A stretch of DNA of 35,447 nt from NCBI GenBank assembly GCA_938084455.1, contig CALKDX010000004.1, positions 1 to 35,447 on the forward strand, written 5' to 3'. Below, in pieces: positions 2,686-32,689 of the stretch; within the stretch, counting starts at the first letter, position 1, and every line of letters begins with the position of its first letter. The position numbers and the translations under genes were made by a program. The DNA comes from Candidatus Poseidoniaceae archaeon. Lineage in GTDB: Archaea > Thermoplasmatota > Poseidoniia > Poseidoniales > Poseidoniaceae. Below the pieces are notes generated by a model that saw only the letters and a list, made by a program, of their open reading frames with translations, searched no databases and was not told where the DNA came from.

Positions 2686-5600
2686 TCAACCGTGAAGGAA
2701 ACTGTTGAGTGCACGACTGTTCTTGGCAACGCCGAATCCAAACCGTTCTTCGAAGGCACGAGAAACCAATGTGAAATCGCTGTCTCGCGTTGCGATGAGG
2801 ATGGTTCCAAGGTTTCCAAGGGATTGCTTAGCAAGATGGAGGGCAATGTGCATTAAGGTACGATCTGGTGCTTCGGGGTAAACATCCAAGCCGTCAACTA
2901 CGGTTCGCGCAGGCTCTCCACGTGTCCGCTTCATAGCAGTGATTTCTTCATAGATTTCCGTGTAATCCGTAAGGAAGTTCACAACCTGTGTTTTGTACGC
3001 TTCATCATTGGCCTCTGCCTCAAGTTGCAAATCCATTGGGCGCCATGTGCTGTAATCATTGAGCACTTGGTCGACAAGTTCCGCGATGACATCCTTTCTA
3101 AACACGGTATCAAGCATCGTTGGTGGGACCAAAAGTCCACTGAAACGGCTGCGAAGGAAATCAAGATCGCTGGCGATACCTGTCAGCTCTTGCTTGACAA
3201 TTGACGGGAGCCAAAGTTGGATTTTACCTTCCTGGGCCCGCTTTAGCAGGACATGGTGGAAGTGGCCGTGCCCCACGATATCGAGACTGGCTTCAGTAAA
3301 CACTTCCAAGCGTTGCTTGATGGTGTCCATGAGGGCATCGATGAGGATGTTTGTGTCGATGAGGACAAGAGGAGAGAGCGAAAGATTGCGCAGGTAACGG
3401 CGGGATGAGTTCGGGATTTGATCTTTGTAAGACGAAAACAATCCTTGTTCAGCGTCTGCGATTCGTTTAATTTCACGGACGCTGAATTGGCCCTTATTTT
3501 GGGCACGCTCAAGGAACATTAGGCCTTCAATTGGCTTTTCCTGAGCAGCATCTCTGGCCAAATCATACAGCTCATCAAGCGAAGGCGAGGAGCCTTGCAT
3601 CAACTGAGTGAATCGTGTGTCAAAGGCATTGCGCTGGCGGCGGCGATTCTTCTGCAAGGCGTTGACTGCTGCAGTGACTCGGCCACAAAATGGATCAGTT
3701 GGAAGGACGCGGTGATGCTCCAATGGATAGGTTTTGAGCATGTCCAAATCATCCTCGGCAAAGTACGTCACCTCGACATCCTCGAGGGTCCCATCTTCTT
3801 TTTCTTGACTGATGGTTTTCGTGCTTCGGACAAACTCCTTCAGCAAGCGTGTTGCTGCGTTGGTGTCTTTTGTCGACATGTGTGAGACACGGAGGTAGAG
3901 TTGGAATCGCTTTGTGATGGCGCTCTTCAAAGCCGGTTGTGCATCAAGCAGTTCCACCGCTTCTTTCCATTGTTCAGCAAAGGCCAAATGGATGAGTGAC
4001 TTTCTGTAAAGGACGATTTTATGTTCGTAATCGAAGCCATCGTGATCGCCTGCACGACGGTAATCACGGGCAGCATTGAGTTCATCTTGCATGGATGCAG
4101 AAACAGAGGCTCGAGCCAATGTATGCCATGGAGACAGCGGGTCATTGGTTTGGTACCAGCGGACCAGCGAAGGAAGACCAAGGTCGTGCTCAAGAACGAG
4201 ATGGCGAACCGAATGAATCATTGCGGTCGGGACATTTTCGTTTTCCAGAATGGTGTTGACGCTGTCAACGGTCGTATCGTCTGTCGTGCCATGTTGGAGC
4301 ATGAGGGCCACGCGGTTGAGCCGCAACGTATCGATGACGGCAGCAAACAAATGCTGTTCCATTTCGGACAATTTTGCGTTTGAGATGCTGGTCTCCAGGG
4401 CGTTCAATTCCTTATTGGCAACGATGCCCGTTCCCCCTTCTCGAAGCGCACGTCGGATGACTCCAAAGGCAAGCAAACCATTCTTGTCGAGCAGGGTGCT
4501 GAGGCGTTCATCGTCTACATTTTCACCTTCAAAGAGCATCAAGAGTGCTTCGCTGGTTGAGGAAAATGCAGGTGGTGCATCTGTGCTATGGATGGAGTCG
4601 AGGGCTTTACCTCGAGCTTCGCGTACTGCATGCCACAACGCATTGTCTTTGCCGGCAGCAAGCAAATGGGCGGCGAGCAATGTTTCGTAAGGATGAGACA
4701 TTGGGGCCAAATCATTCTTGACAATTATTTCCGACAATCTTCGCAGATTCATCGAACGGGTATAGATGTCAATCACAATTGGAAGAACGCTTTCCCATGC
4801 TTCACCGTTCTCTTCGCTCAGGTGCTTTGCTGCTAGTGCTTGCACATCGGTTGCTAAACCATTGAAACGGATAATTTCGACCAATGCCCCGTCGTCAAGG
4901 TGAGGAATTTGTTGGCCTAACCAGGTTTGAACCTCTTGATTGCCGAGGTCGGAGATCAATGGAAGAAGATGGGAGAGTTCGGCATGGACATCCAGTTTCA
5001 AAGCCGTTAATGTCGCCACAGTCTCCTCGGTCTTTCCTTCTCGATGAAGGGCTGAAAGGCGCCACCACATCACCCGTTCAATCGCTTGTGTTGGGGCGTT
5101 TCCTGAGCGAAGAAGGTCAAGGCCTTCTGAAAGAACATCGGACTTGAGTTGAGCAGAGGATTCGGGAGGGTGGTGCCACGCCAAAAACTTGCGAGAATGA
5201 GCCAATGAATGGTCGTCTTTTGCCGTTGAACTCTTCTTCCAATCCGAGACCTCGCCTGCTTTTAGTCGAACCAAATCTGAGAGTTCTTCAGCAAGTTGGG
5301 AATCAAGAGATTCCACATTGGCCAAGTTCGCTTCTGAATCTTCGCCCATTGCAATTGAGAGCAGGGCTGAAATGATGCATGCAGGGCCTTCAAGTTCAAG
5401 CAATAGAGGGGCTGGGTTGAGGCTTCGACCTGCTGACAATTGGGAGAGGACGGTGCGTAGCGCCACTTGGGATTCTGCCGTGTCAACCGTTTGAGAAAGC
5501 GCTTCGAGAGCAACAGCCAAGTCCTCATTCACCGTTGGATCAATGTAAGCAGGACTGCTGTCCACTGTCTTTTTTGATCTCTTTTTCTTTGGTTTTGCGA

Positions 5601-5988
5601 CTGGGAATGCTGCAAATTGCCCAAGAACGGATGTCCGTTGTGCAAGGTCGCCCCAGACTGGATGAACGCCGTCAGCAAGACATGATTCTCGCAAACTGGT
5701 CTCCGAAGATTCCCATGCCGCATCCCATTCGTCTTTGTTCAGTAGTTTGTGTGCGAGCAGGACTGCTAAGCGGAAAGCATCTGAATAGTCACTTGGAAGC
5801 ACCATTTCAGCAGCGCTTGGAAGGTTGTCAAGGGGTCCATTAGAGCCACGTCCACCGCGACGGCCGCGGGTGCGCCTCATGTGCGCAGGCTTTCGCGATG
5901 GGCTGGGTTGATCGTCTTCATCTGCGGCCGGTAATTCGGTTTCAGCCACGGCTAACAAGAGGACTGCGCGCCAAGGTTTCTCGAGCAA
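2686..5988 (-). CDS. Large alpha-helical repeat-like protein with C-terminal PIN-domain ribonuclease
   Basis: 1100 aa; C-terminal LVLIDTNILIDAL...IVKQELTGIA...APDRTLMHIALHLAKQ...ILIATRDSDFTLVSRAF fits the PIN acidic-residue pattern. Central region rich in helical, TPR-like segments. Track start (TTG 5988) is uncertain; ATG 5880 is an alternative. Confidence 0.88.
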   Translation of the reverse strand: MLEKPWRAVLLLAVAETELPAADEDDQPSPSRKPAHMRRTRGRRGGRGSNGPLDNLPSAAEMVLPSDYSDAFRLAVLLAHKLLNKDEWDAAWESSETSLRESCLADGVHPVWGDLAQRTSVLGQFAAFPVAKPKKKRSKKTVDSSPAYIDPTVNEDLAVALEALSQTVDTAESQVALRTVLSQLSAGRSLNPAPLLLELEGPACIISALLSIAMGEDSEANLANVESLDSQLAEELSDLVRLKAGEVSDWKKSSTAKDDHSLAHSRKFLAWHHPPESSAQLKSDVLSEGLDLLRSGNAPTQAIERVMWWRLSALHREGKTEETVATLTALKLDVHAELSHLLPLISDLGNQEVQTWLGQQIPHLDDGALVEIIRFNGLATDVQALAAKHLSEENGEAWESVLPIVIDIYTRSMNLRRLSEIIVKNDLAPMSHPYETLLAAHLLAAGKDNALWHAVREARGKALDSIHSTDAPPAFSSTSEALLMLFEGENVDDERLSTLLDKNGLLAFGVIRRALREGGTGIVANKELNALETSISNAKLSEMEQHLFAAVIDTLRLNRVALMLQHGTTDDTTVDSVNTILENENVPTAMIHSVRHLVLEHDLGLPSLVRWYQTNDPLSPWHTLARASVSASMQDELNAARDYRRAGDHDGFDYEHKIVLYRKSLIHLAFAEQWKEAVELLDAQPALKSAITKRFQLYLRVSHMSTKDTNAATRLLKEFVRSTKTISQEKEDGTLEDVEVTYFAEDDLDMLKTYPLEHHRVLPTDPFCGRVTAAVNALQKNRRRQRNAFDTRFTQLMQGSSPSLDELYDLARDAAQEKPIEGLMFLERAQNKGQFSVREIKRIADAEQGLFSSYKDQIPNSSRRYLRNLSLSPLVLIDTNILIDALMDTIKQRLEVFTEASLDIVGHGHFHHVLLKRAQEGKIQLWLPSIVKQELTGIASDLDFLRSRFSGLLVPPTMLDTVFRKDVIAELVDQVLNDYSTWRPMDLQLEAEANDEAYKTQVVNFLTDYTEIYEEITAMKRTRGEPARTVVDGLDVYPEAPDRTLMHIALHLAKQSLGNLGTILIATRDSDFTLVSRAFEERFGFGVAKNSRALNSFLHG

Positions 5989-6234
5989 GGTCCAATCAGG
6001 TGTTCGTACGACGAAGGACTGGCGACGGTTTTTCGTTACGTTCGCTTTGAACGCAGCTTCAAGACAATTCGCCAGATACGTCTCCTGCAGAATCCTCGCC
6101 CCTCATCCAATGCCTCAACCTACCCATCTTCAACCCACCGGCAGGCTATACTCCCCTGCAAACGCTCCGCATCAGAACGAGCCCCGACAACATCAATGAA
6201 GCGGGAGAACCTCCCCTAACTGAAGGCGAGTTCC

Positions 6235-6705: not shown

Positions 6706-7731
6706 TCAAAGAATTGACAGAGTCTCGTCCCGATTAGCCCACATTTCAAGCCAAACTTCGAGGTTTGAATCGAGGCCTGGTGGCTGAATGCGACATCCAC
6801 ATGCGTTTGCATGCCCGCCCCCAGTTGGGTCCAACGCTGTAGCAAGCCGTGAAAGATCGTACCTACCTTGCCCGTTAGGGAGGAAGGAATTAGCGTAAAA
6901 ACTTGCAGAAAGTGCTGGACGCTCTGGAGTATCGATTGAACCATCGCTATAGCCATGGACAATGCAGCAGGCATCGGCTTTGTCACCTGCCCATGCTGTG
7001 ACGAGGTATCCGTTTGAACGAACGCCTTTCTCGTCCATTCGGCAGACGGCCAAGCGGTCGATGATTGTCGTGTGCTTTTCGACCACCATTTGTGCTGCGT
7101 GGCGCTCTTGTTTTGCCCTCGACACATGTGGAGCGATGTCTGGGTGGGCGAGCACATCGACCAGACGAGTCCCGGCCGCCAGCATGCCAAGAAGACGCTG
7201 CATGTGCTCTGGTTCCCGCATGGAAAGAGAACGGGACAATTGCAGAATTGGTCCATCCTCGATAAATTCCTCTCGGCTAATTTGCCCGGAATCAAGAGCG
7301 TCGACGACGGGCATTATTTCTTCGAGATGGCTCAAATCAATGAACGGGCTAAGCACGTCGTATGCCAAGCGAGCAGCAGAAGGAGTGGCCTCCCAGTGGC
7401 ACGTACCGCCGTCAGCGATGAAGGCTTTTTCTTCCTGCTCATCGGGTCGATTTGTCTGGTGATGATCAAGATACCATCCGCAGTTCGGATGAAACGGAAG
7501 GTCAACCATGGCGGTGTTTCGGTCAATCAGGTGGTCAAGCGAGCCAGACCGCACCAGCGCAGCATGAGCGAAGTGAACAGTCGCTTCGGGATTGACCGAT
7601 TTTAGAACCGCAGCAGCGCACAACCCGTCCAAATCTGAATCCGCAATAATGGATTTGAAATGAGGCAACCCAGCCTTTTGGAGCACGCTCGAACGGTCGC
7701 CCATGAACGCAAGCGCAGGTTGAGTGCTCAA
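6706..7731 (-). CDS. DHH/DHHA1 family phosphoesterase (RecJ-like)
   Basis: IIADSDLDGLCAAAVL, YLDHHQTN, C-terminal DPTGGGHANACGCRI motifs. Confidence 0.9.
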   Translation of the reverse strand: MSTQPALAFMGDRSSVLQKAGLPHFKSIIADSDLDGLCAAAVLKSVNPEATVHFAHAALVRSGSLDHLIDRNTAMVDLPFHPNCGWYLDHHQTNRPDEQEEKAFIADGGTCHWEATPSAARLAYDVLSPFIDLSHLEEIMPVVDALDSGQISREEFIEDGPILQLSRSLSMREPEHMQRLLGMLAAGTRLVDVLAHPDIAPHVSRAKQERHAAQMVVEKHTTIIDRLAVCRMDEKGVRSNGYLVTAWAGDKADACCIVHGYSDGSIDTPERPALSASFYANSFLPNGQGRYDLSRLATALDPTGGGHANACGCRIQPPGLDSNLEVWLEMWANRDETLSIL

Positions 7732-15857: not shown

Positions 15858-16051
15858 ACCAAACGAATGTGGTTCGGTGTTTGAGTGTTGTGTGTCAACG
15901 GGACAGTTGATGCTGAAAACACACCCCTAGGGAGCACTCCAAACGCTGGATTGCTACCCGACCGCCCCGCTGAACGCCTGCAAAGACAAATGAGCAGGGA
16001 TTGCACGATTGGGGGCCGCGTTCAAATACCCCAAAAGGCGCCTGTGATACC

Positions 16052-19000
16052 ATGAACCGGCGAATCGCACTCATTTCCCCCGCCGGCGCCGGCAAAAGAG
16101 CCCTGATGCTGGTTGCAATTATGCTCTGTTCATCGGTTGCCCCGATGATGATGGCCCCTGGTGTTTCAGCCCACGAATCGGCCAATGACACGGTATGGCC
16201 GAAGTCTGGCAGCAACGATACAGGTTGGGTTCAGTTGGACGCCATTGGCGCCGACCCAACAACTGGAACTCAAGCAACCGCAGATTGGACCCTAGAGTTT
16301 GCTCCAGGCGCTGATTTGTCCAATGTTTCCTTCCAAGTCCGAGTCAACGGGAGCGATGGCTTGATGATTGAAGAGCCAATGTTGTTGGCCAACGATATTG
16401 GCATCAATCTGTTGGACTGGCGAGGGCTTGGTTCCTTTGGTTCCTCGGACAGCTTTGCTGGAGCGAACCCCTACGACGGAAGGCTCACACCAAACAGTGA
16501 TTCAGGCGCAACATGGACCATTCCGTCGGATGCGACGATCACCGACTTGGTGATTGAAGCACTGGCGCCAGTGGACCCGGCCGTTTCATTCGAACCGATT
16601 CAATTGGAAATCGGAGCTAAGGCCATTCATCCAGACGATGGCCGGATGTACCTCGCAATCCTCGATGACGTGCTTGTTTTAGACTACAACAACGACCCGC
16701 CAATCATTGACATGATTGAATTCGAAAGCGATGTCCTTGACATGGAAATCGACACGGCAAACAACATGATTCACTTTCTGACCAATGATGAAGGCTTCAG
16801 TGCCATTTCCCTCACAGATTCAGGCAGCCAAGTGGTCCTACCTGATTCTGACGACCCGGAATTCATCGATATGGACCAATTTACCATCACCAGTGGAGGC
16901 GTTTTTGCCGCCGGTGAAAGTGGCCTGTTTTCTTGGACTTCAGGGGCCTGGAGCGAGATTGATGCGCTAGGTGGATCGAGCATTCTTGACATGCTTGAAG
17001 TCGATGGCGTCCTCTACATTGCAACCGACGGAGACGGCGTAATGCGCTACTCCGTTGCCAACGGGGTGATGCTCTCGGATTGGTCGACTGCTAATTCATT
17101 GCATTCTGATGAAATCACATCTATGCTAGTCTCCGGCAATCAGCTGGTGATGGCTTCAAGCGATGCTGGTCTTGCCCGATATGACTGGAGTTCTGGGTTC
17201 TGGCTCTCAACATGGAACAGCGGCAACTGGCTTTCAAGCAACGATGTCACAGGCTTGGCCCGTTCAGGCAACACGCTCTACATCCTCAACGGCGATGCCC
17301 TTCACACCTACAACGCAGCAAGCAATGTGTTCTCTGGCTCCCAAACCATCGATGCTTTCGGTCTTGCAGGGACTGGTGATGAGTTGATCCTCTGGCCAAA
17401 CTCAGGGGCCCGCTCACCAAGTTCGGAATTGATCCTCGTGAGCGATGGTTACGGGGCGCTGGTTGAGTTGACGCCCGGATCCACGCCACTCAACACAGGC
17501 GTTCTCTTGTTGGGAAGTGGACCAACCTCTGGTCAGATGATTGATTCAACCGAACTCGATGGCGTGTTGTTTGTTGCGACTGATGATCAATACCTCAATC
17601 GGTTCGACACGCAAGCATCCCGTTGGATTGAGCCCGTGTTCATTGGAGCTGACATCACGAAACTCAGCAATGACGGAACCCACGTGTACATCGCCGCTGA
17701 AAATGGGGCTCACCAAATGCACAACAATGGAACCGTCCTCCAAACATGGGACACCTCAAACACCCTTCTCTCAAGCAATGATGTCACTGTGGTCCAATCT
17801 GACGGTTCGACCGTCATTGTGCTCAACGAGTTTTACAGCGAATTTTTGGCCATTAACCTCACCGGCTCTCAACCTGCTGTGTTCGAAAGCATCGTGCTGG
17901 ATACAGGTTCAGTTACCGATGCAGCGATTCACGCCAACATCGCCTATGTAGGAACTCAAAACGATGGCCTTCTTCGATATGACATCGCTAACGACACATG
18001 GTTGACCCCGTGGATCTCCACGGGCATCAACGGTGCAAACGATGTGCCTGTCGCGGTTGTTGGCGATATTCTGTACTTTGGAATTCCCGGCTACGGCGTA
18101 GCGCGCAAAGACCTTTCCACCAATGAGATTCTTCTTCCGCTGACGCAATCAAGCAACACTGGCAGCGGAAGTTCCACTGAAATCCTACCATCAGACACGA
18201 TTTATTCGCTGGAAGCAAATGGAAATGTCTTGTACATCGGCACCTCCTTTGGTGCCGTTGAATGGGATGAAGCTGGTTCCAGCGCTGATTCATTCCAGAT
18301 TGGAAGGAACTGGGATGAGCGCCCTCAACAATTCTTTGATTTTGTCGTGGTTGGCTCAAACGTGTACGCTGCAACCAACATCGGTGTGTGCAAATTTCCA
18401 ACAGGAACACTCGATATTGAAGAATGTTTGAATGTGTACGACGGCATGCCAAACTGGGCAACATACTCCATCGGAGTCGGCTCGAACACCTACCTCTTCG
18501 GAGGAACAAATTCTGGTGTTGGAATCATTACAATTTCACCGTTCGACGTGGTCGGTGAATGGACCGCTGGTGAGCAAACAAACAACGCACCCGTTGTCGT
18601 GGTCGGCGATGTTGCATTTATCGCCCTTGATGGCATTGGAATTGCCCGCTATGACATCCCAAACGATGAATGGCTTACGCTGTGGACCGATGACAATTTC
18701 CTTGACGGCGGAAATGAAGATGCAACTGCCCTTTCTGTTGACCTCAATCCAAATTACATCTGGATTGGAGGCGCCGACGGATTCCAATTGCTCAATGCTA
18801 CGACAGGGGCCGAGGTGTACGACATCGAAAAGTCAAGCAACCTGTTTGCTGGAAACGGCGATCCTCTTGATATGATCCTCAAAGGGAACATCATGTATTA
18901 CCACGACGGAGCCAGCAGCGACAATCTGTATCGGTTCGATGCGCAAAATTTCACGGCCCTTTCTGCCCTCGATGCAGGCGCCCAAATCGGTCAGAACAAC

Positions 19001-22000
19001 GGCGATGTCAATGGTATGGGCCTCATTGGCGACATCATCATGATCAGCGTAGCCTCTCAAAACTGGTGGGAGGTTGATGGTTCCGGTGGCATCGCCCAAT
19101 TCAACACAAGCAACGGTTCTTGGGGTGAAAACATTCTGCCAATTGGGCAAGTGGACCGCGTGACTGCTTACCAATCCTCAACCGGAAACATGTGGGTTTC
19201 ATGGGGCGAAAACTCCCTTCAATACATGGACGCTAATGGGACACTGCTCGGCGAATGGGACGATGATGACTTCGATTTCCCAATCCGAGAAATTATCGAA
19301 TATGATGGCGAGGTTTTATTCGCAACCGTAGAAGGAGTTGCGAGGTTCAACGAATCATCAAACCAATGGCTCACGATGTGGGAGGAAGGTTCTGGCCTTC
19401 CAAACAACGCAGGTGAACAGATCTACGAACTCTGGACCGATGGTACAAACTTGGTTGTTGGTGGCGGCGAAGTCAGTGGGTTCGGCCAATTCAGGAATGG
19501 CGCCATTTCTCACTGGGATGGAACCACGTGGAACGATTATTCCACAGGTCAAAACGGCATCCCGAACGGTTATCCAATCACGATGACAGAATGTGCAGGT
19601 TTGCTTCACATTGGCATCTATGCCAATAACGGCGGTGTTGCCCGATTTGACATGGCAAATGACTCTTTCTTAGGCACCTTCACGACAAGCGACTGGAACG
19701 AGAACTATGGAGAGGTTTCCGGCGTTGCTTGCGATGGCACTGACACCCTCTACGTCTCATTCTATGAGGACGAAGCAGACATCAAGAAGTACAGTTACTC
19801 CAGCAATGGATGGTTGAGTCCAATCACGACAGTGAACCACAATCTTCCAAGCGACAGGGTGTGGTGGGACGCTATTGACTACGCCAACGGCATGCTCGTG
19901 CTTGGACATGGCATCGGCACCAGTGGCGACAACGTCATCGGTGGAGGCTACAGCGCTGTGGCCACATCTGGATCATCCACTGCTCAAGTGAATTTCAACG
20001 GGCAAGGATCATCTGTGACTTCATTCCAGTGGCTCACCAACGAATGGCTCATTGGCCAAGCCGGCGGCTCGTCAGGATACAGCCACGTCGACACCATCAG
20101 TTCACTCGGGCAAAACACCTTGCTTGACTTCCCTGGACTTGTCAGTGGCCAGGTCACCTCGATGGCTGGCAATTCCACTCACATCTGGGTTGCGACTGAA
20201 GGGGCAAGCCAGGGCTTCGGCCAAAATGGCGCATCCTCTGGTGCTGGTCTTCTTCAAGGCGAGCGACAGGCAGACGGAACAATCGACTGGCAAGATGGCT
20301 GGACAATGACCGCAAACAGTGTTGCAAAGGACATGGAACTGATTGGTACAGATTTGTACATCACAACAACACCAACAGGACTGTACAAACTCGATACGCT
20401 CAACGGAATGATAATGCGACTCAACGGTGGCCTCCACTCAAATATGGATGGATTATTCGTCAATGGAAACACCCTTGTCATTGGACTGCAAGGAAGCTCG
20501 GGGTCTGCTGCAGGTGTCCAACTCTACGACATTGCAACAGGTTTCGGCAATGGCAAATTACTCGGAGGACTCCCTTCAAACGTCATCAACGCTTTCGCAG
20601 AAACAAGTTCAACCCTCTACATCGCAACCAATGGAGGCGTTGGCCGGTGGAATTGGGCTGCTAACGATTGGATTAACCCGCTCACAACAAGCGATGGCCT
20701 CCCCACCAATGTCGTCGAAGACATCCAAGTGATTGGCACTGACTTGTGGATGGCAACCGCAGCAGGGGTTGTCAAAATGGACACCCTCACAAACGCTACA
20801 ACGCTCTATTCGAGCGGAACAGGTTTGATGGCGACCTCAGCCCAATCCCTCACCACTGCAACGCAGACCACCACCGATAACTCTGGAACGACGACCACGG
20901 TAACCACCCTCTTCATCGGCCATGATGGCGCTGGGGCTGAACGCCCGGGAGTGACCTCGGTCGAGGACACAAGCGGAGCAATCCAGTGGCACAAATTCGA
21001 TCAGTTGCCGTCCAACACCATCGACGCCCTTGCTTCTGATTGGTGGGGCCTTCACATCGCAACTGATGTGGGCCCAATGACCCATTACAACGGCCAGAGC
21101 AACCAACTCGAAGACGGCGTGCCGTCCTTCCAAGTAGCAGGCTGGCCAATTCAGAAGATGGTCAGCGATGGAGATCATGTCTTGGCCATCGGCGAAAATG
21201 GAGCATCGATTCTGAGTGCCAGAACCCCCACTCATGCAACGCTCAAGGTCTTCCAAGAAACTGATCTGACTGGCGGAACAATCACCTCTGACGCAGTGTG
21301 GTTGACAACAGGGGAAATTGGCTTGTTCGGCTTTGAAAACAACGCACAATACACCGAGATGGACCGATTCACGCTCCGAAAAGCAAACCCGTTGAACGTT
21401 GGCTTCAATCTACAATCCTTGGACATCAGCGACATGACTCATCCTGGCATGGCCATTCAGTTGGCGGACCTCGACAACCCCGTTGCCCTCGACCCGTCTT
21501 TTGGTGTCGCAGGCACCAACGGCATCTTGTTCCAAACAGTGCCGTTGGCCTTTACCTCACCCGTCAATTACGCAGCAACATGGGCTAAATCAGTGAGTCT
21601 GAAGTACAACGCTACGATCGAACTGAACAACAACCCAGACTTCGAAACCACCATGCAACTTGCCGTCGACAATGGCATCATTGTCAACGGAACTCAATTC
21701 GTGCAACTCACTTTGCGCTCACCAGCCAATGGGTCCATGCATGTGCGCCTCATTTACGACTATGTCAAGACTGAAACACCGATTGCCCTGTCTGAACTCA
21801 TCGATCGCCCAGACGATGGTGGCGGAGCCTTGATTGCGGAATGGAGCCTTGTTCACGACGATGATTTTGCGCGCTACCTCGTGTATGTGAATGAAGGTGC
21901 AGTTTGGGACCCAAACGGCATCACGGTTGACTACCTCAGCACGCGAACCGTGGACAAAGCCATATCACTTCACAGTCGACTTTCGAGCGAAGTCACAACG

Positions 22001-24394
22001 GCAAACGGAATCGACTTGGTTGATGGCACAGATTACTATGCTGTTGTCGTTGTCGAATACGACGATGGGCGCTTAGGTATTCCATCGCCAGTGATTGGCC
22101 CAGCCTCACCAAGTGATGAAGTTCCACTTCCGCCCATTTGGGCTACTGCGGGGCCCCATGAGGGCGGAGAGGACGGCGATCTTGATGTCGAATGGTCGCG
22201 GTGCACAAGCCTTGACCTTCTGCAAACTAACATCTATGCATCCACTCAACCAATGACCGATGTCTTGGGCTTAACACCCGAGGCTGGAGTCATGAGGATG
22301 GAGGGGAATTCCACTGTATTGTCCCTCTCGCCCGGCCAGCCATATTGGCTTGGATTGACTTGCGTCGACGAGGCTGGTCAAGAGGATTTGATGAACGCCC
22401 TCATCGTTGGACCGTTTGTCCCAACCGGTGGACTCAATGACAACACGCCTCCACCGAAGATGGAGAATGTTGCCGCCATTGACACCCCGGATGACGAGGG
22501 TGGACGAATCACCGTTTCATGGGATGCGAACCCTGCTGAAGACTGCACCTTCTACACCATCTTCATGCGAACATGGGACGAAGCAGCAACTCAAATTGAC
22601 CAAAGTTCGATGCAAGTGATTACCGATTACGGCTTCACTCAAGCGAAGATCATCAATGATTGCTCAGAGGAGTCAGCCATCGTCACAAGCATTGATGGCG
22701 TCGCACTCCAAGACGGGCAAACCTACTATGTGGGCGTCGTAGCATACGATGACTGGCTCAACGCCAACCTTGTTGATGTCACCCTCGTGCAGGTGACGCC
22801 TCTACGAAACACAGCTGGAACAGGAACAATTCCCGATCGTATTTCCACCGTCCAAGCCTTCGACCATCCAGATGACGACGGGACTGCTATCGATGTGCTT
22901 TGGTCCATTTCAGATGCTGATGATTTCTCGCACTACACCGTTTGGGCGGCCGACCAACCAATCGCAGACCTTACAACAGCATGGGCAGCCTTTGGCGAAG
23001 ATCCTAATCGTTGTGGCTGCTTGAAAATCAACAAGCAGTGGGTCGATGAAGAGTTCAATCCAATTGAAATCACCCTCACCTCAGCCCTGTACAGCGGTAC
23101 AACCGGCATGATGGATTTGACTTCAGCAACACCACAATTGATTCAACCTGGAATCGAATTGTTCGTGGTCGTTACAGTGCATGACCTCTCTGGAAATGTG
23201 CACCTCACCGACCTCGTGGAAGCGACGGTCACCCCAATCGACAATGAACAAGACACTGAGGCCCCTGCAAGACTGGAATCACTCGAACTTGTTGACAGGC
23301 CTTCTGACGACGGCAGCGCTCTGTTGCTTGACTTCGAGTTGAGTGATGCGAGCGATGTCGGCTCGTACGAAGTCTATGCTGCAACATGGTCCTTCACAAG
23401 CGTAGGAACTGGAACATTAGGCCCGAGCGCACCGATTGCGATCCTCGAACGTTCCCCTGACCTCCCGCTCACCATTGACTTGGTTGCGGGAGATACACCA
23501 GTGATTCCTGGGCAGGAAATTTGGGCGGTTGTTGTCGTTCGTGACACGTCCGGTAACGCACTCACAAGCGACCTTGTGGTGGTTTCATCTCAATCGGTTG
23601 ACGATGGAGTCGATGAGCGGGGCGACTATCTTCCGGATGTTTCGGGGGTTACCCTTTCATGGGTTGATGAATCCAACATTTTGGTGACCTGGACATTGTC
23701 CTCTGACGACACCATTGAAAGTTACGTCATCTACATTGCAGAAAATGAGTATGATACGACCCTTGAAGCGACGTGGTTGGCCGATGTAAAGGCTTCCAAT
23801 TCCTTCTTAATCACCGCTGAGATATTTGAAGATTTGACCAACGCAAGTGCATGGTATGTCGGCGTCACAGTGCAAGACAATCTGTTCGAAAAGCAGGCCA
23901 TTAATCCGCAAAAGATTGACCCTATCAAAGGTGAAGGCGGCGACAGCACCCTTCCAGGAGATGGCAGCGATGGAGCTGATTTCTCGTCCTTGTTGACAAC
24001 ACCAAACCTCCTTGCAGCAGGGTTGTTCTTCGCAGCGATTATCCTCTTCATTGCAGTTGTCCGCACACGTGGAAACCAGCGCAGCCGATCGAAGTCGTGG
24101 GAACTTCAGGAAGCAACTTGGGGCATTCAAGACGACCAAGATTGGGGTGATGCATCGCCTGCCAATCCACCAGCTGCAGCACCGCCAATGGCACCTGCTG
24201 CTGCGCCAGCGACAGATATGTACGCACCTCAACAAACTCAGCAAGACATCTATGGGCGCCCTGCTTACCAACCAGCACAACCGGTTATGCAGCCCGTACA
24301 GAACAATGAGTTGTTGAACGAGTTAGGTGCTGGTCCTGCTCCAAAGCAACCAAGCAAGGGAATTGACACCTCTTTCTTAGATGATTTACTTTGA
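16052..24394 (+). CDS. Giant cell-surface protein: signal peptide, beta-propeller-like repeats, FN3-like modules, C-terminal TM and cytoplasmic tail
   Basis: ~2780 aa; start MNRRIALISPAGAGKRALMLVAIMLCSSVAPMMMAPGVSAHESAND; many LY(I/F)(A/G)T..GV.R.....W repeats; LLAAGLFFAAIILFIAVVRTRGNQR TM; tail rich in P/Q/A. Confidence 0.93.
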   Translation: MNRRIALISPAGAGKRALMLVAIMLCSSVAPMMMAPGVSAHESANDTVWPKSGSNDTGWVQLDAIGADPTTGTQATADWTLEFAPGADLSNVSFQVRVNGSDGLMIEEPMLLANDIGINLLDWRGLGSFGSSDSFAGANPYDGRLTPNSDSGATWTIPSDATITDLVIEALAPVDPAVSFEPIQLEIGAKAIHPDDGRMYLAILDDVLVLDYNNDPPIIDMIEFESDVLDMEIDTANNMIHFLTNDEGFSAISLTDSGSQVVLPDSDDPEFIDMDQFTITSGGVFAAGESGLFSWTSGAWSEIDALGGSSILDMLEVDGVLYIATDGDGVMRYSVANGVMLSDWSTANSLHSDEITSMLVSGNQLVMASSDAGLARYDWSSGFWLSTWNSGNWLSSNDVTGLARSGNTLYILNGDALHTYNAASNVFSGSQTIDAFGLAGTGDELILWPNSGARSPSSELILVSDGYGALVELTPGSTPLNTGVLLLGSGPTSGQMIDSTELDGVLFVATDDQYLNRFDTQASRWIEPVFIGADITKLSNDGTHVYIAAENGAHQMHNNGTVLQTWDTSNTLLSSNDVTVVQSDGSTVIVLNEFYSEFLAINLTGSQPAVFESIVLDTGSVTDAAIHANIAYVGTQNDGLLRYDIANDTWLTPWISTGINGANDVPVAVVGDILYFGIPGYGVARKDLSTNEILLPLTQSSNTGSGSSTEILPSDTIYSLEANGNVLYIGTSFGAVEWDEAGSSADSFQIGRNWDERPQQFFDFVVVGSNVYAATNIGVCKFPTGTLDIEECLNVYDGMPNWATYSIGVGSNTYLFGGTNSGVGIITISPFDVVGEWTAGEQTNNAPVVVVGDVAFIALDGIGIARYDIPNDEWLTLWTDDNFLDGGNEDATALSVDLNPNYIWIGGADGFQLLNATTGAEVYDIEKSSNLFAGNGDPLDMILKGNIMYYHDGASSDNLYRFDAQNFTALSALDAGAQIGQNNGDVNGMGLIGDIIMISVASQNWWEVDGSGGIAQFNTSNGSWGENILPIGQVDRVTAYQSSTGNMWVSWGENSLQYMDANGTLLGEWDDDDFDFPIREIIEYDGEVLFATVEGVARFNESSNQWLTMWEEGSGLPNNAGEQIYELWTDGTNLVVGGGEVSGFGQFRNGAISHWDGTTWNDYSTGQNGIPNGYPITMTECAGLLHIGIYANNGGVARFDMANDSFLGTFTTSDWNENYGEVSGVACDGTDTLYVSFYEDEADIKKYSYSSNGWLSPITTVNHNLPSDRVWWDAIDYANGMLVLGHGIGTSGDNVIGGGYSAVATSGSSTAQVNFNGQGSSVTSFQWLTNEWLIGQAGGSSGYSHVDTISSLGQNTLLDFPGLVSGQVTSMAGNSTHIWVATEGASQGFGQNGASSGAGLLQGERQADGTIDWQDGWTMTANSVAKDMELIGTDLYITTTPTGLYKLDTLNGMIMRLNGGLHSNMDGLFVNGNTLVIGLQGSSGSAAGVQLYDIATGFGNGKLLGGLPSNVINAFAETSSTLYIATNGGVGRWNWAANDWINPLTTSDGLPTNVVEDIQVIGTDLWMATAAGVVKMDTLTNATTLYSSGTGLMATSAQSLTTATQTTTDNSGTTTTVTTLFIGHDGAGAERPGVTSVEDTSGAIQWHKFDQLPSNTIDALASDWWGLHIATDVGPMTHYNGQSNQLEDGVPSFQVAGWPIQKMVSDGDHVLAIGENGASILSARTPTHATLKVFQETDLTGGTITSDAVWLTTGEIGLFGFENNAQYTEMDRFTLRKANPLNVGFNLQSLDISDMTHPGMAIQLADLDNPVALDPSFGVAGTNGILFQTVPLAFTSPVNYAATWAKSVSLKYNATIELNNNPDFETTMQLAVDNGIIVNGTQFVQLTLRSPANGSMHVRLIYDYVKTETPIALSELIDRPDDGGGALIAEWSLVHDDDFARYLVYVNEGAVWDPNGITVDYLSTRTVDKAISLHSRLSSEVTTANGIDLVDGTDYYAVVVVEYDDGRLGIPSPVIGPASPSDEVPLPPIWATAGPHEGGEDGDLDVEWSRCTSLDLLQTNIYASTQPMTDVLGLTPEAGVMRMEGNSTVLSLSPGQPYWLGLTCVDEAGQEDLMNALIVGPFVPTGGLNDNTPPPKMENVAAIDTPDDEGGRITVSWDANPAEDCTFYTIFMRTWDEAATQIDQSSMQVITDYGFTQAKIINDCSEESAIVTSIDGVALQDGQTYYVGVVAYDDWLNANLVDVTLVQVTPLRNTAGTGTIPDRISTVQAFDHPDDDGTAIDVLWSISDADDFSHYTVWAADQPIADLTTAWAAFGEDPNRCGCLKINKQWVDEEFNPIEITLTSALYSGTTGMMDLTSATPQLIQPGIELFVVVTVHDLSGNVHLTDLVEATVTPIDNEQDTEAPARLESLELVDRPSDDGSALLLDFELSDASDVGSYEVYAATWSFTSVGTGTLGPSAPIAILERSPDLPLTIDLVAGDTPVIPGQEIWAVVVVRDTSGNALTSDLVVVSSQSVDDGVDERGDYLPDVSGVTLSWVDESNILVTWTLSSDDTIESYVIYIAENEYDTTLEATWLADVKASNSFLITAEIFEDLTNASAWYVGVTVQDNLFEKQAINPQKIDPIKGEGGDSTLPGDGSDGADFSSLLTTPNLLAAGLFFAAIILFIAVVRTRGNQRSRSKSWELQEATWGIQDDQDWGDASPANPPAAAPPMAPAAAPATDMYAPQQTQQDIYGRPAYQPAQPVMQPVQNNELLNELGAGPAPKQPSKGIDTSFLDDLL
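21775..23935 (+). repeat. About six tandem FN3-like modules (~110-145 aa period) within the giant surface protein
   Basis: Recurring starts: LSELIDRPDDGGGALIAEWSL, WATAGPHEGGEDGDLDVEWSR, VAAIDTPDDEGGRITVSWDA, VQAFDHPDDDGTAIDVLWSI, LELVDRPSDDGSALLLDFEL, VTLSWVDESNILVTWTL. Confidence 0.75.
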
Positions 24395-31522: not shown

Positions 31523-32689
31523 TCAAGGCGCCCGCAATGCATCCAAAACATTGCCACGGCGGGGTTTCGAGATACCGAGGGGTGTTGGCAAAGCGTGCTC
31601 AAGTGCGACCTCTTCTGCCCATGCCTTCTGGCAATCGCATTCCAGGCCTTCAAACTCAGCCAATTCTCCTGAAACGGCATACCGCTCGATAGCGGCCACG
31701 ACCTCAGCATCGCAAGCCCCGCAGTTGTGTGCACCGCGTACACGGCCACCAGCTGTTGGGTGAACAATGAGTCGACTGACTTGGCCCTCGCCACCATTGC
31801 CTGTGTTGTTAGGATGAATCGTTGGGTGTGCCTGTCGAATCATTTCGACCAAAGACCACAGCCAAGGAGGACGATACTCGTTGTGACGGTGCAATCGATC
31901 GATGATGGTACCGCGCTGAATGTTCATCGGGTTAACAGAAATTTCATCGCTCTTTTCAGCCACAGCCTCAATCCATTTGACTCCATGAAGCAGTGCATCT
32001 GCTTCATTCATGAACGGTGGTTTGAACATCAAATAGGTCTTCACCCGTACGTTGAATTTCTTGAGGTTCTCAACAGCACGGTCCCATGATTTGGTCGTGA
32101 ATCCTTTGTTGACGTGGAAGCGAAGCACTTCATCGTCGTAGGCCTCGAGGCCGATGGCGACTGCGAAACTCGTGTTGATCGAGGTGGCCCAGGCCAACTT
32201 CTCTTCCGTGAGTTGTTCGCATCGTGATTCAACGATCAATTCTTTGCCAAGATCCTGGCAATCGCGCAGCACAGTCTCTTGAAAAGGAACTGGAATTTCC
32301 CGATCCTCAAGCAGTGAACCGCTGGTGTAAACTTTCACCATCGCATGGTCTTTGAAATCGTCGAATTTAGATTTTGCATACGTCCATTGGGCGTGCAGGT
32401 CCTCGTTCGTGACATCGTCGCGTGTGTCGTTGAAGTACCCGCAAAAGGTGCACCCACTTGACCACCACCAATGGCATCCCTTGGTGCGCAGAATCACGGT
32501 CACTGCACTGCAAGGGGTTCCATCTGCGAGTGTTTCCGGGGTGTAGTACACTGTTGCAGGTTCACTTGCGTCCCATGACTGTTGCCTGGCTTTAGCCCAA
32601 GGCGTGTTTGCCGGGGCTTTGACCAGATCGTGAATACGAGCGCCTTTCTGACCATCTCCAACCAAGGTGAGTGATTTTTGATTCGCCAT
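31523..32689 (-). CDS. Radical SAM protein of the archaeosine biosynthesis (RaSEA) type
   Basis: RTKGCHWWWSSGCTFCGYFNDT cluster-binding motif (C-x7-C-x2-C), VKVYTSGSLLEDREIP, ELIVESRCEQLTEEKL, AIGLEAYDDEVLRFHVNKGF, C-terminal CGACDAE. Confidence 0.88.
   Translation of the reverse strand: MANQKSLTLVGDGQKGARIHDLVKAPANTPWAKARQQSWDASEPATVYYTPETLADGTPCSAVTVILRTKGCHWWWSSGCTFCGYFNDTRDDVTNEDLHAQWTYAKSKFDDFKDHAMVKVYTSGSLLEDREIPVPFQETVLRDCQDLGKELIVESRCEQLTEEKLAWATSINTSFAVAIGLEAYDDEVLRFHVNKGFTTKSWDRAVENLKKFNVRVKTYLMFKPPFMNEADALLHGVKWIEAVAEKSDEISVNPMNIQRGTIIDRLHRHNEYRPPWLWSLVEMIRQAHPTIHPNNTGNGGEGQVSRLIVHPTAGGRVRGAHNCGACDAEVVAAIERYAVSGELAEFEGLECDCQKAWAEEVALEHALPTPLGISKPRRGNVLDALRAP

Follow-up and report, generated by a model that had tools for sequence, protein, structure and literature searches.

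A divergent PIN domain on a long helical scaffold, a probable accessory endoribonuclease of Candidatus Poseidoniales

Described PIN proteins and the present locus

PRORP and HARP are protein-only RNase P enzymes with PIN-type nucleases, and PRORP also joins its PIN domain to a helical-repeat domain. Amongst archaeal proteins, the PIN-ATPase PINA is a large PIN protein that combines an N-terminal PIN domain with an ATPase domain. Genetic data on PINA have been published (PMC8775617). In SMG6, the metazoan nonsense-mediated decay endonuclease, a TPR-like domain precedes the C-terminal PIN domain, whose acidic residues are D1251, E1282, D1353 and D1392 (PMC12923823).

We have analysed a 35,447-nucleotide stretch of DNA from a Candidatus Poseidoniaceae archaeon (hereafter the window), with a minus-strand gene whose predicted product shares the plan of SMG6, i.e. 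a large helical region, TPR-like in SMG6, that leads into a C-terminal PIN domain carrying acidic residues. The likeness, judged by analogy, is one of plan and not of membership. SMG6 was absent from the PDB profile matches and from the top 50 listed structure matches, and no sequence relationship, including to its 14-3-3-like fold, was observed; moreover, the Poseidoniales PIN domain is predicted to carry a helical insert of ~85 residues, and the fold of its scaffold could not be equated with that of SMG6. The eukaryotic pathway in which SMG6 acts is, to our knowledge, not known in these archaea.

With VapC toxins (PF01850) the PIN core appears related at the profile level and the acidic residues occur in the same order, however, the protein has about 1134 residues as against about 130, is accompanied by no antitoxin and is inherited as a single copy across the order. 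The family PIN_12 (PF16289) ranked among the two commonest Pfam matches when the PIN domain was searched by itself (9 of 28 orthologs), but always under its curated cut-off of 32 bits, and the other archaeal PIN_12 matches are without a large scaffold, their frames being mostly 119-508 residues long. Unlike in PINA, the PIN domain is C-terminal and no ATPase domain was matched.

As regards PRORP and HARP, RNase P RNA was detected in 55 of 60 relatives, the window genome included, whereas the HARP model (PF08745) had no match over its cut-off in 60 genomes and PRORP was unmatched in PDB searches. A separate Nob1-type PIN protein was found in 44 of 50 genomes (in the window genome on another contig), and the PIN_6 model (PF17146) did not match the PIN-scaffold protein. 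Rrp41-family proteins occur in all 40 genomes searched, with 24 over the curated cut-off and three having weak paralogue matches only, and aCPSF1 exceeded its cut-off in 37 of 40. Since RNase P, Nob1, the exosome and aCPSF1 are all present, replacement of any of them by the PIN-scaffold protein was rejected; it comes on top of a full archaeal complement.

No entry in Pfam, NCBIfam, PADLOC or the PDB describes the protein, and no account of it was found in the part of the literature covered; a match to a well-described large family of PIN proteins, which the initial annotation had named as counter-evidence to its own reading, was not obtained. On sequence and predicted models, we regard it as a putative PIN nuclease whose scaffold and insert have not been described before.

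Gene model and predicted architecture

The initial annotation placed the gene at 2686-5988 as a frame of about 1100 residues. This minus-strand frame, with a TTG start at 5988, is present in the window and is real, a chance frame being excluded by unbroken full-length frames in more than 50 genomes together with a dN/dS of about 0.05; however, the TTG probably lies 34 codons too far downstream. The gene most likely spans 2686-6090 on the minus strand, encoding 1134 residues plus a stop codon, with a CTG start codon at 6088-6090 which is kept in all near relatives examined. In most orthologs outside the window's clade an ATG, TTG or GTG lies at the CTG position or a few codons away from it, and the start at 6090 is preferred because the N-terminus and the place where it begins are conserved among orthologs. 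Residues are numbered throughout from the CTG of the 1134-residue protein; full-length orthologs range from about 1090 to 1250 residues. Standard gene callers would place the start of this gene too late.

Upstream of the start, a block of ~29 bp (GCCGGTGGGTTGAAGRNGGGTAGGTTGAG, 6114-6142, minus strand) was found, in an alignment of 29 relatives, to be more conserved than the surrounding leader, and it occurs at the PIN gene in most genomes of the same subclade. Its folding as RNA is unremarkable (z -1.9). The core of the block, CGRTGNNTTGA, also precedes other genes, for instance at 32689 (minus strand), and occurs in the window more often than expected (38 against 23). For these reasons a gene-specific regulatory leader was rejected and a general promoter element is considered likelier; the block may be an undescribed promoter element of Poseidoniales. 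As a separate observation, a near-perfect inverted repeat, CACCCC...GGGGTG, lies about 10-30 bases before the start of the PIN gene at five loci of other Poseidoniaceae genera, where it could hide the ribosome-binding site.

The whole-protein AlphaFold2 model consists of an all-helical solenoid and a C-terminal PIN fold, with a mean pLDDT of 82.5 and a pTM of 0.63, so that local structure is surer than overall curvature. Residues 1-50 are modelled as helical and are followed by a low-confidence segment (residues 53-84, pLDDT below 50). Within this segment lies an Arg/Gly-rich stretch at about residues 72-82 (5845-5877, minus strand), the basic RGRRGGRG run noted in the initial annotation, which is indeed conserved: R77 is invariant, R78, G80 and R81 are conserved in at least 90% of 31 orthologs, and the net charge of the stretch is positive or neutral in all 31. 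The alpha-solenoid scaffold is predicted to comprise residues 93-900 (3391-5814, minus strand), almost all of it helix, in agreement with the earlier description of the ~850 residues before the PIN domain as helical. Its likening to TPR or HEAT repeats found no Pfam match in the window protein, and orthologs gave isolated weak solenoid matches only. Structures matching the whole model are generic solenoids with TM-scores around 0.15, the best weak ones including the Ski238 complex. A predicted beta-hairpin at residues 755-777 (3760-3828, minus strand) breaks the solenoid and, along with the insert in the PIN domain, is the least conserved of the structured parts, whereas conservation at the end of the solenoid (residues 621-754) and in the helices preceding the PIN domain exceeds that of the remaining scaffold.

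The C-terminal PIN domain (residues 901-1134; 2689-3390, minus strand) had been proposed from short motifs, all of which are present and conserved, namely LIDTNILID (D912, T913, N914), VKQEL (E968), DRTLMHIA (D1076) and ATRDSDF (D1103, D1105, F1106). Modelled alone, the domain reached a pTM of 0.85, and its elements run in PIN order, with a strand bearing D912, helices, a strand, a helix bearing E968, the helical insert, a helix bearing D1076, a strand, TRDSDF with D1103 and D1105, a helix and a final strand. The conserved acidic residues likewise fall in the order of PIN domains, with an Asp after strand 1, a Glu in helix 3, an Asp in a later helix and an Asp after strand 4. The insert, delimited by model topology and low conservation, covers about residues 976-1060, i.e. 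~85 residues (2911-3165, minus strand).

In Pfam searches with the isolated domain from 28 orthologs, PIN-clan families were the commonest matches (PIN in 12 and PIN_12 in nine, next to three each for NYN and PIN_3), every single match being below its curated cut-off. The PIN core was also compared by hhalign with 27 VapC-type PIN domains taken from archaea elsewhere in the phylum, the only set tested. With the insert kept, only partial local matches were obtained; when it was cut out, using thirteen alternative boundaries chosen after these untrimmed comparisons, profile P-values were 1.2e-6 to 8.8e-6. Ten column-shuffled controls gave a best P of 0.016 and seven scaffold segments gave 0.1 or worse, while an eighth segment (residues 790-939) scored 1.1e-4, as is expected because it contains the DTN strand. 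In a viral structure library, two PIN proteins ranked top against the PIN model (probability 0.98 and 0.97, E 0.03-0.04), whereas a PDB structure search with the same model returned no significant PIN match and no subfamily placement. In view of the latter, the assignment rests jointly on motif order, profile test, predicted topology and viral structure matches. The domain is, as judged from sequence and models, a divergent PIN domain with an unusual insert, to which structure searches lend weak backing.

Distribution, locus and selection

The gene is nearly universal within one order. Amongst 293 genomes of the phylum searched with a full-length profile, it was found in 77 of 82 Poseidoniales genomes, of both families, and in none of the 211 others, including six of the same class but another order; a PIN-only profile gave a matching distribution. 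The architecture, for which the initial annotation had suggested a survey of taxonomic distribution, is therefore near-universal in Poseidoniales (77/82) without being found elsewhere in the phylum (0/211). The gene is essentially single-copy, second matches being mostly fragments on other contigs. A profile search of contigs confirmed 222 loci; among the best 80 of these, the named relatives are Ca. Poseidoniales (Marine Group II) or metagenome-assembled genomes labelled Euryarchaeota or euryarchaeote, and the closest is UBA258 at 98% protein identity. Viral contigs, when searched, contained no relative of the protein, and a viral origin was rejected on this ground.

Five Poseidoniales genomes were negative. 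In two of them (G298 and G306) the site of the PIN gene is missing from the assembly, as the neighbouring DHH gene lies at a contig end. The remaining three belong to a single genus (g4) that retains the flanking genes but lacks the PIN gene. At its three loci (L159, L160 and L161) synteny is otherwise preserved from the DHH gene to icd, or to the gene following icd, and in L159 other genes occupy this interval. In a single-gene tree, the g4 DHH genes nest inside other genera of their family, and the absence is therefore read as a lineage-specific loss, although the three sequences do not form one clade in that tree. Loss from an otherwise intact locus also indicates that the gene is not strictly essential and that it performs no indispensable step in this genus.

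The gene occupies a stable chromosomal locus that is syntenic across the order. It adjoins icd tail-to-tail at a distance of 7 bp, a small membrane-protein gene diverges 144 bp upstream, and in both families a recurrent order is found, i.e. cobalamin adenosyltransferase, NUDIX, DHH phosphoesterase, small membrane protein and PIN gene, on alternating strands. An operon-type partnership with the DHH and NUDIX genes was rejected, since, despite the conserved order, the genes lie on alternating strands and the neighbours are still found in genomes that have lost the PIN gene; for the same reasons, shared function cannot be concluded from synteny alone. The neighbouring genes are metabolic and not repair genes, and the neighbourhood offered no operon or RNA-processing partner that would hint at a substrate. 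The DHH/DHHA1-type phosphoesterase itself (6706-7731, minus strand), also syntenic order-wide, is divergent, scoring below the Pfam cut-offs with the DSDLDG, DHH and GGGH motifs present. Elsewhere in the window, an open frame of 2797 residues (16001-24394, plus strand) with hydrophobic segments at its N-terminus and near its C-terminus resembles a giant cell-surface protein.

Sequence comparisons indicate strong purifying selection, with the PIN domain as the most constrained part. D912, E968, D1076, D1103 and D1105 are invariant in 31 orthologs with identities down to 26%, as are T913, N914 and F1106; a disrupted acidic quartet, which the initial annotation had named as evidence to the contrary, was seen in none of the 31. 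Relative to UBA258, dN/dS was 0.047 overall, 0.052 for the solenoid and 0.016 for the PIN domain; synonymous sites are saturated in more distant comparisons.

Proposed function and its alternatives

The reading that we favour, and hold to be probable with some reserve, is that this protein, confined to Ca. Poseidoniales, acts as an accessory endoribonuclease dependent on metal ions, in which a single polypeptide supplies both the nuclease and a scaffold to guide it. From the PIN fold we infer, by analogy, RNase catalysis and RNA as the substrate, and we propose docking by the scaffold and a role in processing or surveillance. The disordered Arg/Gly-rich tail and the long alpha-solenoid would bind a specific RNA or RNA-protein complex, the acidic residues of the PIN domain would hold Mg2+ or Mn2+, and the PIN domain would cleave single-stranded RNA that is presented close to where the solenoid ends, so acting as an accessory RNA-processing or RNA-surveillance nuclease beyond the complete set of RNase P, Nob1, exosome and aCPSF1. 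The invariant acidic residues, the profile P-values, the viral PIN matches, the modelled helical solenoid, the low dN/dS, the presence in 77 of 82 genomes, the conserved locus and the conserved Arg/Gly stretch all argue for this reading; against it stand the absence of a PDB PIN match, the sub-threshold Pfam scores, the loss in one genus and the lack of any partner hinting at a substrate. The gene had earlier been suggested to encode a housekeeping or RNA-processing nuclease with a large recognition scaffold. The large helical scaffold and intact-looking PIN site uphold much of this, and structure prediction returned the helical solenoid with a C-terminal PIN fold, but 'housekeeping' is too strong for a gene that is confined to one order, was lost in one genus and coexists with the standard enzymes.

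A narrower form of the endoribonuclease reading, which we consider unlikely, is a ribosome- or mRNA-surveillance endonuclease convergent with SMG6, whose solenoid would recruit translation or quality-control factors while the PIN domain cuts faulty mRNA. It draws on the likeness of plan to SMG6, in which a TPR-like helical domain precedes a C-terminal PIN bearing four acidic residues (PMC12923823), and on the Ski238 complex being amongst the best weak matches of the whole model. However, TM-scores near 0.15 are typical of any solenoid, the PDB profile search gave no sequence link to SMG6 and no partner gene suggests surveillance. An order-specific archaeal RNA-surveillance endonuclease, with an RNA- or ribosome-binding solenoid and its own PIN domain evolved independently of SMG6 for mRNA quality control in these abundant surface-ocean archaea, has a minor chance of being correct.

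The wider PIN-like superfamily also includes DNA nucleases such as FEN1, and the PDB search gave the PIN domain no subfamily; a nuclease of DNA or branched structures, with a DNA-binding scaffold and a PIN domain serving repair or replication, is nevertheless decidedly doubtful. Arg/Gly tails are commoner in RNA-binding proteins, the profile comparison, which covered VapC-type PIN domains only, matched these, and the neighbouring genes are metabolic.

It is still less likely that the protein serves as a structural scaffold, with a non-cleaving PIN domain that binds RNA or protein; a catalytically dead PIN domain on a large helical protein does exist in SMG5 (PMC12923823), but here every acidic residue is invariant and the PIN domain is the most constrained part.

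A VapC-like toxin or other defence effector with a large regulatory scaffold is highly improbable, for in spite of the resemblance of the PIN core to VapC domains at the profile level there is no antitoxin, the locus is stable and syntenic order-wide, the gene is single-copy and under strong purifying selection, PADLOC gave no consistent match and no viral relative was found. A toxin-antitoxin role was rejected on size, neighbourhood and distribution, in keeping with the initial annotation, which had judged the gene not toxin-sized and without an antitoxin: the product has 1134 residues, and no antitoxin-sized partner lies beside the gene in the window, where its neighbours are icd and the membrane-protein gene, or in relatives. 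PF01850 itself was detected in none of five Poseidoniales genomes, whereas 28 of the 36 genomes searched elsewhere in the phylum carry one or many such domains. Membership of a defence system was also rejected, given the want of a consistent PADLOC match.

Marine Group II is described as uncultured and among the most abundant archaea of surface oceans (PMC6461757, PMC9723583). A single-copy, strongly constrained nuclease that is kept by nearly all of Marine Group II and is unnamed in curated families would point to a lineage-specific step of RNA processing or surveillance, and the genus without the gene offers a natural comparison for finding its function.
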